Positions 13,710 to 25,350 of a stretch of DNA of 64,000 nt are shown piece after piece. The stretch comes from Sulfurospirillum diekertiae (GTDB taxonomy: Bacteria; Campylobacterota; Campylobacteria; Campylobacterales; Sulfurospirillaceae), in assembly GCF_002162315.1 (NCBI RefSeq), contig NZ_CP021416.1:1314207-1378206 (forward strand), read 5' to 3'. Under the pieces are notes generated by a model. The model ran no database searches, had not been told where the DNA came from, and saw nothing but the letters and a program-made list of their open reading frames with translations. Every line of letters starts with the position of its first letter. Within the stretch, counting starts at the first letter, position 1. Made by a program: the position numbers and the translations under genes.

Positions 13710-14387
13710 TTACATAAGATCGATGTGATGAGAAAATTTTTCAACGAGAGCATTAGCATAAGGTCGGTGTTTGATCACTTCATTTTTAAGCTCTGTAATT
13801 TTTTTCTCAACATCTGCGCCACAAGGATAAATTTTCTTGCACAATCTTACATGTAAAAAAACACCAGTATGTTCATTGGCAACAATTTCTAAGATTTCAC
13901 GTTTTCGATCAGGATGTTTTTGGATCATATCATAGGCAAACGCAAAAAGGGCATCGCCTTGAAAATCTTCCACAAAGTCAAGGACACTTGAAGCGTAATA
14001 ATAGATGATATACTGCTCATACAGTGCTTTATCTTTTGTATCAACGAAAGCTTCAAGCAATTTAAATTTTTTGTCAAAATTGTCTGTATTGATGATCATA
14101 TCTTTGGTAACATGTTTTGTATTGAGAGGCTCTAATGTCAGTGATTTTCCAAAAGAGTTGATAATGCCATCGATGGAGACATTACTAAAAAGTGCTTTTC
14201 CATTAATTTTAAGGGCAGCCAAGTCGCTTTTTGGGTAGTCAAAGCTACCATCTTCTTCTTTGATTTGCGCTAAAAGATCGTTCACACTCAGACTTCGATC
14301 AATAGTAATAAAATGCTTTTTATAGTAAGGCAAAAAATCCGTTTTAGCGTCAAAGCGAAAGACGCTCAACTCAAGCTTACACTCCAT
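13710..14387 (-). CDS. DUF5644-like protein resembling a cysteine-less SdhB/FrdB N-domain
   Basis: 225 residues. The first 90 look like the 2Fe-2S ferredoxin-like domain of fumarate reductase/succinate dehydrogenase iron-sulfur subunits (LELSVFRFDAKTDFLPYYKKHFI, then SVNDLLAQIKEEDGSFDYP and AALKINGKALF), but the ligand cysteines are absent. A helical domain follows with a few Cys (RLCKKIYPCGAD) that do not form the usual CxxCxxC clusters. The next gene is HdrB-like, mirroring the SdhB-SdhE pair in Campylobacterota fumarate reductases. The pair thus looks like a fumarate reductase module that lost its metal centres. The assignment rests on layout and remembered family resemblance. Confidence 0.6.
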   Translation of the reverse strand: MECKLELSVFRFDAKTDFLPYYKKHFITIDRSLSVNDLLAQIKEEDGSFDYPKSDLAALKINGKALFSNVSIDGIINSFGKSLTLEPLNTKHVTKDMIINTDNFDKKFKLLEAFVDTKDKALYEQYIIYYYASSVLDFVEDFQGDALFAFAYDMIQKHPDRKREILEIVANEHTGVFLHVRLCKKIYPCGADVEKKITELKNEVIKHRPYANALVEKFSHHIDLM

Positions 14388-16560: not shown

Positions 16561-16915
16561 AAGGTACAGTAGGTGATTGCTTGAGAGTTTCTCTTAAGAG
16601 GAAAGTCCGGGCTGCATATGAGACATGGTTCCGTCTAACGGACGGCTAGGGTAACCTAAGGGATTAGTGCAACAGAAAGTAAACTACCATCATGTCATGC
16701 TTGCTTCGGCTTGTTTGATGTATGGAAAAGGTGAAACGGCGGGGTAAGAGCCCACCAGTGCTTTAAGTAATTAAAGCAGCTATGTAAACCCAACCTGCAG
16801 CAAGAAGGGATGGTTTTGGTCTCATACACGATAAACCCTTCGCTAGAGGTCTACCGTAAGATAGATCGTAGATAAATAATCACCCACGACAGAACCCGGC
16901 TTATCGCTGTACCTT
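16561..16915 (+). ncRNA. rnpB: RNase P RNA (bacterial type A)
   Basis: The conserved cores are all present in order: GAGGAAAGTCCGGGCT near the 5' end (CR-I), GGGTAACCTAAGGG, CAACAGAAAGTAAACTACC, GTGAAACGGCGGGGTAAGAGCCCACC, and ACAGAACCCGGCTTAT near the 3' end (CR-V). The ends AAGGTACAG (16561-16569) and CTGTACCTT (16907-16915) pair to form P1. The length of about 355 nt is normal. It is the catalytic RNA of tRNA 5' processing. Confidence 0.95.
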
Positions 16916-16946
16916 TTGTCAACAAAGCCTAAAAAAAGGATGTTTT

Positions 16947-18134: not shown

Positions 18135-21084
18135 GAAGGTGAAGATACGTCAAAAAATAAGTGTTTTCCGTTATTTTCACATTATCACGCTGGTTCTGTT
18201 TTTAACCTTTGCCATTATATTTTTTGTACTTAATTTTTACAATGCACGCATGGCTTTTGAGCGTGAATCAACCAATTTACAAGAGCACTACATTGAAACC
18301 CAAAAAGGTATTTTAATTGCTCAAGTGGATCAATTTACAGAACACATTATTAATGAACGTAATAAAGCTTATACAAAAAATCAAAAACTGATCCAAACGC
18401 GTGTTAACCGTGCCTATGATATAGCGACACAGATTTATGAAAAATACAAGCAAACACACGATAAAGCGTTTATTCAAGAGAAAATTATAGAAATACTGAG
18501 ATTTTTGCACTATGAAAATGGTTACTATTTTATAACACAATTAGATGGTTTAGAAATTCTCAATGCGGATCAGCCAGAGATGGAAGGTCACAATATGCTT
18601 ACGTTAGAAAATCATGATATGGCTTTAGCGATTCAGCAGATACTCACCATTGCACACAATGATAAAGAAGGTTTTGATGACTATTTTTGGACTAAACCGC
18701 AAAATGATTCTAACGAACTTTTTCGCAAAATTACCTATGTAAAACTTTTTGAACCCTATGAGTGGGTTATTGGAACAGGCATCTATCTTGAAGATATAGA
18801 GCATGATCTTAAAGAAGAACTTGCGAAGGATAAAGAGCGTTTATTGTTTAATGAAGAGAGTGGTAATTATATTTTCATTGGAACATGGGATGGTCTTAGT
18901 ATTGCTGGTCCAAATCAAGGACAAAATACCTACAATCTACGGGATAGTAATGGTAAATATCTGGTTCAAGAGTTGATTCATAAAGCCCAAGATGGAGGTG
19001 GGTTTGTTGAATACGTTACCCCTGATAACAATAAGCAAGATAAGATGAGCTATGTGGTTCCTTTGTATGGCTGGAAGTGGTATGTTGGTTCTGGAATTCA
19101 TCTTAAAAATGTGAATGAAGAGATCGCAAAATTGCGTGATACCATGTCTAAAGAGATGCAACATACTTTTTTTACTATTGTGATATGGCTCATTACTTTG
19201 AGCGTTCTTACATGGATTGCTCACCTTTATATCAGTCGTAAAATTAGTAAAGATTTTGCTGTTTTTATCGATTTTTTCGATTCTCTAGCCAATAAAGACA
19301 AGTATATTGATCTCTCTAAAGTGCGATTTCGTGAGTTTGAAGAGCTTGCAAATCATGCTAATACCATGTTAGAAGCAAAAATTTCCAGCAACAAGCATTT
19401 AGAGCAGTATAAAAAAATTGTTTCAAGTTCAGATGACTTTTTAGCATTAATTGATCGTAACTATATATATCTTGCCATCAGTGAAGCATATCAGAAATTT
19501 TTCAATAAGCAACAAGACGAGATTTTACATCATACTATGGCTGAGTTACATGGGACACAGTATTTTCTTGAAGACTTGAAGCATTTAAGCGATAGAGCAT
19601 TATCAGGTGAAAATTTTGAACATGAAATGTGGGTTCTCTCTTCCTATGGTAAGCGATTTTTACATATTAAGTATTTTCCTTATTTTGAAAAAGATGGCGA
19701 TGCCTTGCCGATTGCCTATGTTGTTTCTGCTCGTGACAATACAGAGAAACAAGCGAATGAAGAGCGATTGTTGGCTTCTGAAAAAGAGCTAGAATTTTTA
19801 GCTCATAACGATGTTCTAACGGGTCTTCCAAATCGATTACTTCTGAGCGATCGTATTGCGCATGCGATTGAAAATAGTAAACGCCAAGGTGGTATGATTG
19901 CGGTCTGTTTTCTTGATCTAGATAACTTTAAAAAGATCAATGATAGTTTTGGACACTCTTATGGTGATGAAATCCTGAAGCAGTTTGCCTTGCGTGTTCG
20001 AGGTAAAATTCGACATTGTGATACATTGGCACGTGTCGGTGGTGATGAGTTTATTTTATTGGTTGAAAATATCAAAGAAAAACATGAAATTGAGATTATT
20101 CTCTCTAAGATTCAAACGATTTTCGAAGAACCATTTGTCAACAAAGATCAAAAATTCTTTCTTTCTGCCAGCATTGGCATTAGTGTCTATCCAGAGCATG
20201 GAACCGAGGGAGAGACGTTGATTAAAAATGCAGATGCGGCCATGTATAAAGCCAAAGATGCAGGTAAAAATACGTATCTCTTTTATACGATGGCGATGAC
20301 GGTAGCATCATACGAGCGTATCGGTATGGAAAATGCCTTACGTGAAGCAATCAAAGAGAATCAATTTATCGTTTATTATCAGCCACAAATTGATCTTAAA
20401 ACGCATGAGCTTATTGGTCTTGAGGCTCTTTTAAGGTGGAACCATCCCTTAGAAGGTATCTTGCCACCAGGGCGTTTTATTGCCTTCACTGAAGAGACAC
20501 GCTTAATCGTTGAAATTGGAGCATGGATTTTGAAACAGACATGCTTTGATGTGGTAGCATTACATGAAGAAGGAATTTTTAAAGGTACCGTTTCCATAAA
20601 TATTTCAGGTGTCCAAATCGAATATAGTGATTTTCTAAGAACGCTTAAAGAGACTTTGAATGAGACAAAAATTGATCCCAAAATCGTTGAAATGGAAGTC
20701 ACAGAATCATTCATCATGCACGACCCCGAACGTTGGATCACGCTTTTAAAAGAGATGCAAAAATTAGGACTTAGCATTGCTATTGATGATTTTGGTACAG
20801 GGTATTCTTCGTTAAGTTATTTGAGAAAACTGCCTATTAACAAGCTTAAAGTCGATATGTCTTTTGTAAAAGATATTCCAAAACAAGAAGATGCCTGCGC
20901 GATTGTAAATTCCATCATTACTTTGGCTCAAAATATGAATATTACGACTCTAGCAGAAGGTATTGAGCATAAAGATCAAGAGGATTATTTAGCGGAACAT
21001 GGATGCAAACAAGGGCAGGGGTATTTGTATTCAAAACCATTAAGCCTTAGTGATCTCAAATCTTGGATTAAAATACATTTTTAG
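18124..21084 (+). CDS. Membrane dCache-PAS-GGDEF-EAL cyclic-di-GMP protein
   Basis: 986 residues. A membrane helix near residues 20-45 (TLVLFLTFAIIFFVLNFY) is followed by a periplasmic double Cache sensor (YYFITQLDGLEILNADQPE; then YIFIGTWDGLSIAGPN and GWKWYVGSGI), a second helix, a PAS domain (SSDDFLALIDRN) and both turnover domains. The cyclase motif is intact (ARVGGDEFILL), as are the phosphodiesterase motifs (LEALLRW, IDDFGTGYSSLSYL, LAEGIE). It may therefore both make and degrade c-di-GMP. Starts at 18097 (ATG), 18124 (ATG) and 18139 (GTG) are possible; the last has the best spacing to AAGG. It overlaps the antiporter gene end and converges with the XRE gene. Confidence 0.92.
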   Translation: MKDKKVKIRQKISVFRYFHIITLVLFLTFAIIFFVLNFYNARMAFERESTNLQEHYIETQKGILIAQVDQFTEHIINERNKAYTKNQKLIQTRVNRAYDIATQIYEKYKQTHDKAFIQEKIIEILRFLHYENGYYFITQLDGLEILNADQPEMEGHNMLTLENHDMALAIQQILTIAHNDKEGFDDYFWTKPQNDSNELFRKITYVKLFEPYEWVIGTGIYLEDIEHDLKEELAKDKERLLFNEESGNYIFIGTWDGLSIAGPNQGQNTYNLRDSNGKYLVQELIHKAQDGGGFVEYVTPDNNKQDKMSYVVPLYGWKWYVGSGIHLKNVNEEIAKLRDTMSKEMQHTFFTIVIWLITLSVLTWIAHLYISRKISKDFAVFIDFFDSLANKDKYIDLSKVRFREFEELANHANTMLEAKISSNKHLEQYKKIVSSSDDFLALIDRNYIYLAISEAYQKFFNKQQDEILHHTMAELHGTQYFLEDLKHLSDRALSGENFEHEMWVLSSYGKRFLHIKYFPYFEKDGDALPIAYVVSARDNTEKQANEERLLASEKELEFLAHNDVLTGLPNRLLLSDRIAHAIENSKRQGGMIAVCFLDLDNFKKINDSFGHSYGDEILKQFALRVRGKIRHCDTLARVGGDEFILLVENIKEKHEIEIILSKIQTIFEEPFVNKDQKFFLSASIGISVYPEHGTEGETLIKNADAAMYKAKDAGKNTYLFYTMAMTVASYERIGMENALREAIKENQFIVYYQPQIDLKTHELIGLEALLRWNHPLEGILPPGRFIAFTEETRLIVEIGAWILKQTCFDVVALHEEGIFKGTVSINISGVQIEYSDFLRTLKETLNETKIDPKIVEMEVTESFIMHDPERWITLLKEMQKLGLSIAIDDFGTGYSSLSYLRKLPINKLKVDMSFVKDIPKQEDACAIVNSIITLAQNMNITTLAEGIEHKDQEDYLAEHGCKQGQGYLYSKPLSLSDLKSWIKIHF

Positions 21085-22043: not shown

Positions 22044-22084
22044 GCTTGAAAAAAACCATAAATCAGTACAATTGTCCTTAATCG

Positions 22085-22446
22085 TTCGTGCTAGGAGGGC
22101 TGGTAAACCAGCTGAGATAAAGAATGGTGATTCTTTGATCCTTATACCAAGCGCACCTATCTATCGCATCAATAGCTTGTTAAGCACCAAGTATCATGAG
22201 GCGACACTTTGAAAGTGTAGTCAAACTACACTCAAAAGTCTCAACGAAATGAGACGCCGTGTGATTGACAAGCCCTACGGGAACTTTTTTAAAATCATCT
22301 TTGGGGCGTTAAAGATACTTGCTTTGCACTTAGCAAGGTTGCGCATCTTTGCCTACCAAACACAATTTTTAAAAAGTTCTATTGACGTGATAGATAGATG
22401 CGCTTGGTATCTACCTGATCTGGGTAATGCCAGCGTAGGAAAGCTC
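22085..22446 (+). promoter_or_regulatory. TPP riboswitch with large junction insertion
   Basis: The pyrimidine sensor is seen as CTAGGAGGGCTGG-taaa-CCAGCTGAGATAAAG near 22091-22131, with the conserved CTGAGA and a P3a hairpin (AAAGAAT-ggtg-ATTCTTT). The pyrophosphate sensor is TACCTGATCTGGGTAATGCC then AGCGTAGGAAAG at 22412-22443. Normally these halves are contiguous; here about 267 bases are inserted between them. Downstream genes thiD-cytX-thiM are thiamine salvage genes, which confirms the ligand. Thiamine pyrophosphate binding would reduce expression. Confidence 0.9.
22144..22410 (+). other. Structured insertion inside the TPP aptamer
   Basis: The arms at 22144-22165 and 22389-22410 are complementary over 22 bp with one C-A mismatch (ATACCAAGCGCA against TGCGCTTGGTAT outermost), enclosing a 223-base loop. 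Inside are further stems: AGTGTAGT-caa-ACTACACT, GTCTC-aacgaaat-GAGAC within a GGCG/CGCC pair, GAACTTTTT with AAAAAGTTC, and AAAGAT with ATCTTT enclosing CTTGC/GCAAG. It lies where J2-4 of the aptamer should be, so it would make a fourth helix at the three-way junction. No ORF with a ribosome site and no known intron core was recognised. Confidence 0.7.
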
Positions 22447-22553
22447 AATCAAACCAACACACATCCTCTTTTGATACCTTCTCACAACTTTTTTATCTTT
22501 ACATGTAAAGCTTACATGTAAAAGCAATTTATTTTATTTTACGAGGAAAATGT
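22447..22553 (+). promoter_or_regulatory. Leader between TPP aptamer and thiD with twin palindromes
   Basis: About 107 bases lie between the aptamer and the thiD start. They hold TTTACATGTAAA (22498-22509) directly followed by TTACATGTAAA (22512-22522); together the two form a larger palindrome centred on AAGCTT that could fold as a hairpin. AGGA lies 7-9 bases before the thiD ATG. A classic terminator with a U-tract was not seen, so control may be at translation initiation. Confidence 0.45.
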
Positions 22554-23357
22554 ATGAAACATTGTTTAACTATAGCGGGCTCGGACAGCTGTGGCGGAGC
22601 GGGCATCCAAGCCGATCTTAAAGCCTTTAGTGCCAATGGAACGTATGGCATGAGCGTTATCACCGCTATTACGGCGCAAAATACGCAAGGTGTTTTTGAT
22701 GTGCAAGACATTAACCCTTCCGTGATACAGCATCAAATCGAAGCAATTTTTGATGATATACATGTGGACGCTGTTAAAATCGGTATGGTTTCTCGTCCTG
22801 AAACCATTGAGATTATCGCGGCAACCCTTAAAAAATACCCCCTACCACCCCTTGTGATTGACCCTGTGATGATCTCCAAAAGCGGGTATGATCTTTTACA
22901 ACCTGAAGCTAAAAAAGCACTCATCGAAATTCTCTTACCTATGGCTACGCTTATCACCCCAAATCTTCCTGAAGCCGAAGTGATCGTAGGCTATAAGATC
23001 GATACGATAGAACTGATGCAAAAAGCCGCTCTTGATCTGCATAAACTGGGTTGTAAGTATGTACTGGTTAAAGGAGGGCATTTAGAAAACGACGCTACCG
23101 ATATTCTTTACGATGGTGAAGCATTCCATCTTTTACACTCTAAACGATTAAAGACGATTAACACGCATGGAACGGGCTGTACGCTCTCTTCAGCAATTGC
23201 TGCTAACCTCGCAAAGGGTTTACATGTAAAGGCTGCTGTTGAGGAAGCCAAAGCGTATATCACCGAAGCGATTATGCATGGATTTAAACTAGGGCATGGC
23301 GTGGGGCCAGTGCATCATTTTTACGCACTTTACAAAAAAGCAGGGGTTGAGTCATGA
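22554..23357 (+). CDS. thiD: Hydroxymethylpyrimidine/phosphomethylpyrimidine kinase
   Basis: 267 residues. [22 protein letters not shown] near the N-terminus, AVKIGMVS near residue 77, [11 protein letters not shown] near 100, and [23 protein letters not shown] near 205-225 (anion-hole GTGC with the catalytic Asp replaced in register by the usual GTGCT context) are ThiD/PfkB-type ribokinase motifs. It phosphorylates HMP and HMP-P in thiamine salvage and synthesis. It is first in the operon behind the TPP riboswitch and overlaps cytX by 4 bases. Confidence 0.94.
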
Positions 23358-24565
23358 TGGAAGAAAAAACAACGTTAAGCGGTTTTGGATTGTTCACACT
23401 CTGGTTTGGTGCGGCAGTCTCGATGGCAGAGATTTTTACGGGTGGTCTTTTAGCGCCACTGGGGTTTAGTGAAGGTTTAAAAGCGATTCTTTTAGGGCAT
23501 CTTATCGGTGGTTTGATTCTTATTTTGGGTGGCTACATTGGAGCCAAAAGTAAGCTTCCAGCCATCATGTCCACGCGCATCTCCTTTGGGCGTTATGGCT
23601 CCTACCTTTTTTCACTCTTAAATGTGCTTCAACTCATAGGCTGGACAGCCGTGATGATCATCTCGGGCGGGCGTGCTGCGAATGAACTTGGCATTAGTTT
23701 GTTTGGATTTGATAGCATCAATACTTGGGCGATTGCCATTGGTGTTTTTATAGGACTTTGGATTTGGCTTGGAAAAGTAGGCTTTCAAAAGCTCAATGTC
23801 GTGGCGGTTGTTCTTCTGTTTGCGCTCACATTGATTTTGTGTGGCGTGGTTTTTCAGGAGGGAAGCATTTTACATGTAAAACCCACGGGTGAGATGAGTT
23901 TTGGCTCTGCGCTCGAACTCAGCGTCATTATGCCACTTTCGTGGTTACCACTCATTTCTGACTATACACGTTTTTCAAAAAGCAAAAAAAGTGGACTCAT
24001 CGGCAGTTTTACAGGTTATTTTGTAGGAAGTTCTTTGATGTATGCCATTGGTCTAGCCATTGCCCTTTATGCTCAAGATGCCAGTGTGGGAACGATGATG
24101 ATGGCACTGCATTTAGGTTTTGCCGCTCTTGGCATCGTACTTCTCTCCACTATTACCACTACTTTTTTAGATGCTTACTCAGCGGGTGTCACGTTTACCA
24201 ATATTTTTCCAAAAATGAGTGAGCGTAAAATTGCTTTTGTGATGGCACTACTAGGATTGGTCGTGGCGCTTATGATGCCTATTGAGGAGTACGAAACCTT
24301 TTTGTACGCGATAGGTTCTGTGTTTGGACCACTCTTTGCGATACTGTTGAGTGATTATTTTATCTTTAAAAAAATGCAAATTGAGCCCATGTTGGCTTTA
24401 CATGTAGGTGCGTTGATCGTTTGGGTTATAGGCGTTGGCTTGTATTATTGGATGATGACGCTTGATCTTCCATTAGGTTCAACCCTTCCAACGATGCTGG
24501 CAACAAGCATTATTTTTATTATTACGAAAAAGGTTATGGCATCATGGACATTAAAGAGCAACTAA
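23354..24565 (+). CDS. cytX: NCS1-family transporter CytX (probable hydroxymethylpyrimidine permease)
   Basis: 403 residues with about 12 hydrophobic helices. LFTLWFGAAVSMAEIFTGGLLAP at the N-terminus and the MSTRISFGRYGSYLFSLLNVLQLIGWTAVMI region fit the cytosine/purine/hydantoin permease family, in the CytX branch linked to thiamine riboswitches. Its place between thiD and thiM supports uptake of the HMP precursor. ATGATG gives two adjacent possible starts; the first overlaps the thiD stop. Two TTACATGTA elements occur in it, encoding LHVK and LHVG. Confidence 0.88.
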   Translation: MMEEKTTLSGFGLFTLWFGAAVSMAEIFTGGLLAPLGFSEGLKAILLGHLIGGLILILGGYIGAKSKLPAIMSTRISFGRYGSYLFSLLNVLQLIGWTAVMIISGGRAANELGISLFGFDSINTWAIAIGVFIGLWIWLGKVGFQKLNVVAVVLLFALTLILCGVVFQEGSILHVKPTGEMSFGSALELSVIMPLSWLPLISDYTRFSKSKKSGLIGSFTGYFVGSSLMYAIGLAIALYAQDASVGTMMMALHLGFAALGIVLLSTITTTFLDAYSAGVTFTNIFPKMSERKIAFVMALLGLVVALMMPIEEYETFLYAIGSVFGPLFAILLSDYFIFKKMQIEPMLALHVGALIVWVIGVGLYYWMMTLDLPLGSTLPTMLATSIIFIITKKVMASWTLKSN

Positions 24566-25350
24566 ACGAAGTATTTAAAGCACTACAAGCTAAGCGTGCG
24601 CTTATTCATCATATTACCAATTATGTAACAGTCAATGACTGCGCCAATGTTGTTTTAGCCATTGGTGCTTCACCGATTATGGCTGATGAGATCAGCGAAG
24701 TTGAAGAGATGGTGGGCATTTGCGATGCGCTGGTTTTAAACATTGGAACGGCGAATGAGCGTACCATCACTTCCATGTTAAAAGCAGGACGCGCAGCAAA
24801 TACCAAAGGGATTCCCGTTGTGCTTGATCCTGTCGGTGTCGGAGCGACTTCTTTTCGTCATGGGAGTGTCGCTAAACTTATGAAGGCGATCTCTTTTAGC
24901 GTGATTCGGGGCAATATGGCGGAGATCAAAACGATTGCAGGACTTGAAGCGAAGAGTGCAGGGGTTGACTCTCTAGAAGAAGAGAGTGATGGCGCTAAAA
25001 TCGCTTTGAATTTGGCACAAAAACTAAACTGTGTGATTGCGATTACGGGTAAAACTGACATGGTATCCGATGGTAAAGTTTGCTATGCCCTAGACAATGG
25101 CGCTATTGCATTAACGCAACTAACAGGTACGGGTTGCATGAGCACCTCACTCATTGGGAGTTTTATGGGTGCTTCTAAAAATGCCTTAGGTAGTGCTGTT
25201 GCAGGTATTTTAACGATATCTATAGCTGGTGAAGTGGCTGAAAAAAGCAGAGGACTGGGAACATTTCATACGTCATTGATTGATGCCATCAGTCAAATGG
25301 ATGTGAAAACTATTTTTGATAAATGTAATGTAAGCTTGATTAAACAATAA
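24544..25350 (+). CDS. thiM: Hydroxyethylthiazole kinase
   Basis: 268 residues, normal for ThiM. ALIHHITNYVTVNDCANVVLAIGASPIMADE, VLDPVGVGATSFR, VIRGNMAEI and the catalytic region LTGTGCMSTSLIGSFMG (with the active-site Cys) are all intact. It phosphorylates the thiazole moiety so that it can be joined to HMP-PP. It overlaps cytX by 22 bases and ends the riboswitch-controlled salvage operon. Confidence 0.94.
   Translation: MDIKEQLNEVFKALQAKRALIHHITNYVTVNDCANVVLAIGASPIMADEISEVEEMVGICDALVLNIGTANERTITSMLKAGRAANTKGIPVVLDPVGVGATSFRHGSVAKLMKAISFSVIRGNMAEIKTIAGLEAKSAGVDSLEEESDGAKIALNLAQKLNCVIAITGKTDMVSDGKVCYALDNGAIALTQLTGTGCMSTSLIGSFMGASKNALGSAVAGILTISIAGEVAEKSRGLGTFHTSLIDAISQMDVKTIFDKCNVSLIKQ

Follow-up and report, generated by a model that had tools for sequence, protein, structure and literature searches.

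A dispersed palindromic element in the J2/4 junction of a Sulfurospirillum TPP riboswitch

The leader of the thiamine operon of Sulfurospirillum diekertiae raises the question of where a 267-nt insert within a TPP aptamer comes from, and of what becomes of a riboswitch that receives it. We analysed a 64,000-nucleotide stretch of this genome (the window; G000 is the window's own genome, and coordinates are positions within the window) and found both halves of the aptamer ahead of thiD, a cytX-type permease gene and thiM, an operon already named in a sequence-only reading of the same DNA and now backed by a Pfam match for each gene (Table 1). A cmscan search with the TPP model RF00059 returned two half-matches, 25.0 bits at 22083-22166 and 34.8 bits at 22395-22458, which both fall below the gathering cut-off of 54.3 bits because 267 nt separate P2 from P4; the insert-free aptamer of relatives scores 71-74 bits against the same model, above the cut-off. 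The failure of the whole-model score is therefore a search artefact caused by the insert, and no feature of the aptamer is missing. The pyrimidine-sensor arm (CUGAGA, P2, P3) is the same as in plain homologues, the pyrophosphate-sensor arm (P4, P5, GCGUAGG) is the same in ten genomes, and the aptamer bases are identical across all ten aligned Sulfurospirillum genomes, carriers and non-carriers of the insert alike. The -10 box is kept across these ten genomes (as TATAAT in G019), as is the CATCCTC anti-Shine-Dalgarno in most of their leaders, and the thiamine operon downstream and a predicted expression platform complete the features expected of an RF00059 member. By each sequence feature tested, the whole-model score excepted, the thi leader is a TPP riboswitch. 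The earlier proposal of an intact aptamer with a structured insert thus holds, the covariance check suggested with it having recovered both aptamer halves as separate matches.

Table 1. Features of the split TPP aptamer, its insert and the thi operon, with two family members at rRNA loci of genome G109
Feature	Position	Strand	Basis or remark
Putative -10 box (TACAAT), thi operon promoter	22067..22072	+	read from sequence; just upstream of aptamer
TPP aptamer, 5' half	22088..22142	+	partial RF00059 match
P1 5' strand	22088-22092	+	
P2 5' strand	22093-22096	+	
P3	22099-22112	+	
CUGAGA	22112-22117	+	
P3a	22119-22136	+	
P2 3' strand, UCCU	22139-22142	+	
Palindromic element, 267 bp, in J2/4; dispersed-family member	22144..22410	+	absent at same place in G008, G009, G012, G016, G023; full-length structural homologues elsewhere
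Left arm (terminal inverted repeat)	22144..22175	+	32-nt arms, 91% complementary
Module A hairpin, AGGC (22199-22202) opposite AACGAA (22243-22248)	22175..22273	+	consensus fold and covariation
Central CCCUACGGG, kept between the two modules	22273..22281	+	alignments and consensus
Module B, inverted counterpart of module A: CGTT 22307-22310, TTTGCCT 22348-22354	22280..22380	+	consensus
Right arm (terminal inverted repeat)	22379..22410	+	32-nt arms, 91% complementary
TPP aptamer, 3' half	22413..22446	+	RF00059 match, 34.8 bits
P4	22414-22417/22436-22439	+	
P5	22420-22423/22430-22433	+	
GCGUAGG		+	segment of 3' half
P1 3' strand	22442-22446	+	
Predicted anti-Shine-Dalgarno CATCCTC	22462..22468	+	pairs with thiD Shine-Dalgarno once aptamer forced
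thiD Shine-Dalgarno GAGGA	22543..22547	+	sequence
thiD	22554..23357	+	Pfam PF08543, E 3e-102
cytX-type permease	23354..24565	+	Pfam PF02133, E 2e-32
thiM	24544..25350	+	Pfam PF02110, E 8e-78
Family member in 16S rRNA	L284 (G109:C1:1240001-1260000) 19333-19602		intervening sequence
Family member in 23S-5S spacer	L284 (G109:C1:1240001-1260000) 13963-14171		

The insert lies between P2 (AGGA/UCCU) and P4 (CCUG), where it adds a fourth helix as had been proposed, and its length and closing stem of roughly 22 bp were also read correctly from the sequence. The region has a predicted folding energy of -131.6 kcal/mol (z = -8.1), which none of 100 shuffles equalled. Its longest frame corresponds to no protein family, and a small ORF running across the insert (22249-22521) gave no Pfam match in its insert part and, judged by eye, no clear coding pattern in its few changes. 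The size of the insert and its location within a structured RNA would suit a self-splicing group I or II intron or a ribozyme, but the Rfam intron and ribozyme models gave no match in the insert with E relaxed to 10, nor in six further loci of the element with E up to 5, and no splice-site logic was found, so that we regard this reading as hardly credible.

The insert is polymorphic at this site. It is carried by four of the ten aligned Sulfurospirillum genomes (G000, G004, G019 and G020), with 95-97% identity and no indels among the carriers, and an assembly artefact, which the sequence-only reading had raised as a concern, is excluded because three more genomes share the insert at the same place. 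Five others (listed in Table 1) have a plain aptamer with the junction CCTT-GTG-ACCTG at exactly the position of the split one, and not elsewhere in the leader, the arrangement that would have spoken against an inserted aptamer. In G013, a 26-nt mini-hairpin is built from the two ends of the insert and looks like an internal deletion of it. Within the order sample (249 genomes), split TPP matches of this kind occur in just the four carriers. Long, non-conserved and variable stem-loop insertions are known generally in riboswitches (PMC2258182), and short J2/4 hairpins are present in the thiD leaders of G021, G002 and G013 as well as in a second TPP riboswitch of the window's genome (L001), which lies ahead of a gene reading as thiC and has no such insert. 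Insertions thus recur at this junction within the genus, and an ordinary riboswitch stem could conceivably have grown in place. However, full-length homologues of the insert lie away from any riboswitch, and the insert conforms to a family in its length and its arrangement of modules, which largely refutes growth in place and leaves it very unlikely.

This family was revealed only by a covariance model, whereas BLAST alone suggested a unique insert. Plain DNA searches with the insert against its own genome, the genus, the order, plasmids and phages matched only the four carriers, and exact-pattern scans of viral contigs gave zero matches. Weak arm matches in G177 and G374 were set aside as chance; they lie inside coding genes whose translations resemble purF and a histidine kinase. 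A model built from the insert core (R1) found full-length homologues at unrelated loci, and its improved version (R2) matched 15 of the 24 genus genomes and, across Campylobacterota, 66 of 397 genomes belonging to 23 of the 68 genera, with E values down to 1e-40 and frequently several copies in one genome. The search for the insert alone in related genomes, which the sequence-only reading had called for, was thus negative beyond the four carriers by DNA similarity and positive across the phylum by covariance; the nearest copy beyond the carriers is only about 50% identical to the insert. The 38 copies that we extracted are mostly 264-281 bp long (the longest 287), with near-perfect inverted repeats of 24-39 bp as arms, and follow a plan of two inverted modules, each AGGC, a hairpin and AACGAAG, around a GCCC-NNN-GGG centre; copies are matched by the family model on both strands. 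Several unrelated classes of arm sequence occur (ATACCAA.., AAGTACC.., AGACTTCTTGCAT.., GGGCACCTCT..), and a copy from another bacterial family (L211) has ends resembling those of the TPP insert (ATACCAAATCC..). In 23 copies with identities below 80%, canonical pairs fill 92.5% of the cells at 71 paired positions, against 37-46% with the pairing slid, and Watson-Crick changes on both sides are seen at 70 of these 71 pairs, counts that lean in the structure's favour in that the alignment was fitted to the model structure. A pair-shuffling test restricted to the four inserts had given an uninformative 71 of 500, and the wider family settled the matter. All 34 copies checked avoid protein-coding ORFs. 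The element family, absent from Rfam and from the literature searched, is a previously unrecognised, self-folding and phylum-wide one. Outside the phylum, a single-module relative in Photobacterium sp. GJ3 (NZ_CP073579.1, L302 1489-1567) suggests a wider distribution.

Insertion polymorphism extends to other sites. A second copy in G019 faces a clean empty site in G008, with a 3-bp AAT duplication, and a single-module relative in G000 (L227 7331-7424; G000:C1 ~1952331-1952424) is absent from the sister genome G016. At the TPP site, relatives have CCTTGTGACC and carriers CCTTATACC...GGTATCTACC, and a clear target duplication is not visible. Short, non-coding and bounded by terminal inverted repeats, with dispersed copies and empty sites, the element is MITE-like; as a stem-closed insert within a structured RNA, it also has the layout of an rRNA-type intervening sequence (IVS). 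Neither a transposase gene nor a parent insertion sequence was found, and a pattern search with one arm class, which is not that of the TPP insert, gave no IS-sized inverted pair in the 24 genus genomes. Three identical copies in G109 did not lead to a parent insertion sequence because they lie in 16S rRNA operons, each within a 16S rRNA gene, and they became evidence on intervening sequences instead. The G109 16S gene model spans 1806 bases, and in the alignment 272 nt replace 7 model positions at what we take to be the helix-10 region. A G021 copy (L150/L174, G021:C1:2123219-2123427) separates a TPP aptamer from the start of thiC, a second association of the element with a thiamine leader.

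We consider it probable that a complete dispersed palindromic element, with a MITE-like layout and IVS-like behaviour (it has inverted arms and two hairpin modules in inverted orientation and lacks genes), entered J2/4 of the TPP aptamer that precedes thiD, that aptamer and switch were kept, and that the resulting allele spread by recombination. Transposition would be the original cause. Of the earlier suggestion of a decayed mobile element, the mobile part agrees with the dispersed copies and the empty site, while decay conflicts with the length, the intact arms and the fold kept across carriers. As to the spread, carriers and non-carriers are interleaved among the Sulfurospirillum relatives: rpoB is 99.3% identical between G000 and G016, where G000 alone has the insert, and 97.4% identical between G019 and G008, where G019 alone has it. 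The thi operons of the near-identical G000 and G016 are only 82-92% identical from about +250 to +2000 and 95-100% identical farther on, and from this dip it follows that the operon was exchanged by recombination. The insert-bearing allele would thus have moved between Sulfurospirillum species through homologous recombination of the thi leader.

Between carriers, the insert differs by 3-5%, against a synonymous divergence of 0.63-0.82 in thiD, so that the insert is constrained, has spread recently, or both. Natural variants of the insert also preserve the fold better than type-matched random substitutions do, with a summed minimum free energy of -473.1 against -433.8 (sd 9.4), none of 300 simulations being as good, and with 4 broken pairs against 9.8. 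The insert fold is under selection across carriers, which counts against a purely passive passenger. Both the low divergence and the maintained fold could point to an accessory RNA domain serving thiamine control, whether as a second sensor, a protein site or a tuning helix. However, recent spread by recombination can also give low divergence, close relatives lack the insert, and the window's own copy is an exception to the pattern, with two pair-breaking changes and a fold worse than its own simulations. The same element moreover neighbours unrelated genes across dozens of genera, many of these loci having no connection with thiamine; this speaks against the second sensor envisaged by the sequence-only reading, and we judge an accessory role of any of these kinds improbable.

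If a mobile element entered the junction, its arms would zip together in the transcript and keep P2 and P4 adjacent, so that the aptamer core could form around the new fourth helix. Folding predictions agree with such an arrangement. With the native insert, P3, P3a, P4 and P5 have a predicted pairing of 0.91, as compared with 0.95-0.97 in insert-free alleles, while shuffled inserts give a mean of 0.66 and only 3% of them match the native one; these figures are support and not proof, because the energy models form no P2 or P1 without ligand in either allele type. It appears from the predictions that the aptamer survives because the two ends of the element zip together. Downstream, the anti-Shine-Dalgarno/Shine-Dalgarno switch would work as in insert-free relatives: forcing the aptamer lowers the predicted probability that the thiD Shine-Dalgarno is unpaired from 0.80 to 0.27 in G000 and from 0.45 to 0.05 in G016. 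In both allele types the Shine-Dalgarno is thus predicted to be hidden when the aptamer forms, and switching was probably retained.

The arms give a near-continuous double strand and, by analogy with rRNA intervening sequences, RNase III would likely cut this long stem. A processing site, one of the options named in the sequence-only reading, is possible. It is possible, and we hold it tentatively, that cutting goes further and yields a split riboswitch, in which the insert is dropped and two RNA pieces are held by P1 and tertiary contacts. A family member in what we place as the 16S helix-10 region, where intervening sequences occur, adds to the analogy. In other bacteria, RNase III excises rRNA intervening sequences without ligation (PMC4990558), and mobile Correia/NEMIS repeats within mRNA have been proposed as substrates of RNase III (PMC2229807). 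A cut in the 5' leader could, however, make the mRNA less stable or disconnect the switch, and yet the carriers conserve all aptamer bases. If true, splitting would alter the TPP response of the thi operon or the stability of its mRNA. It is more tempting still, and rather doubtful, to suppose that RNase III makes a natural two-piece TPP riboswitch here and that the family is the long-sought source of the rRNA intervening sequences of Campylobacterota.

The reading of a mobile element that leaves the switch in place invites comparison with several known systems. The locus has all core segments of the TPP riboswitch (THI element, RF00059), thiD-cytX-thiM downstream and a predicted platform of the translational type, and differs in that J2/4 is broken by a 267-nt palindrome, so that the model sees two half-matches. 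MITEs such as Chunjie, Correia/NEMIS and BOX share its length below 500 bp, inverted ends, lack of coding sequence, dispersal between genes and empty sites, but the element has a deeply conserved two-module core and several unrelated arm classes, and its parent transposase was not found. Like the rRNA intervening sequences of Campylobacter, Helicobacter and Coxiella, it is a stem-closed insert in a structured RNA, and the G109 16S member sits at a comparable place; the host RNA here is a riboswitch aptamer, and the likeness is one of layout and position. Intervening sequences in Campylobacterota 16S and 23S rRNA (Campylobacter, Helicobacter) are closed by stems of 21-24 bp (PMC3335488). It has been proposed that rRNA intervening sequences derive from transposable elements (summarised in PMC4990558), and the family offers a direct test of this proposal because one of its members is a 16S rRNA intervening sequence. 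A close parallel is the pneumococcal BOX element in a trp leader, a mobile repeat with independently folded parts in a regulatory leader whose flanking T-box riboswitches apparently still work (PMC3049150); BOX lies between two aptamers, whereas the present element lies within one aptamer core. The locus would illustrate an evolutionary route by which an aptamer gains a whole helix beside its ligand-binding core and keeps its own sequence. It also exposes a widespread structured element family missing from Rfam, and riboswitches broken by such inserts are missed by standard covariance searches.

Several minor observations concern the same genomes. The arm class TAGACTTCTTGCATAAC also encloses shorter elements, about 166 bp long, in G012, G004, G020, G021 and G013, where very short arm-only palindromes occur too. 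An arm-like TAGACTTCTTTCATAACCCA directly adjoins the second TPP riboswitch in G016 (G016:C1:610841-610860) and G023 (G023:C1:632227-632246). Elsewhere in the window, 16561-16919 encodes an ordinary RNase P RNA of bacterial class A.
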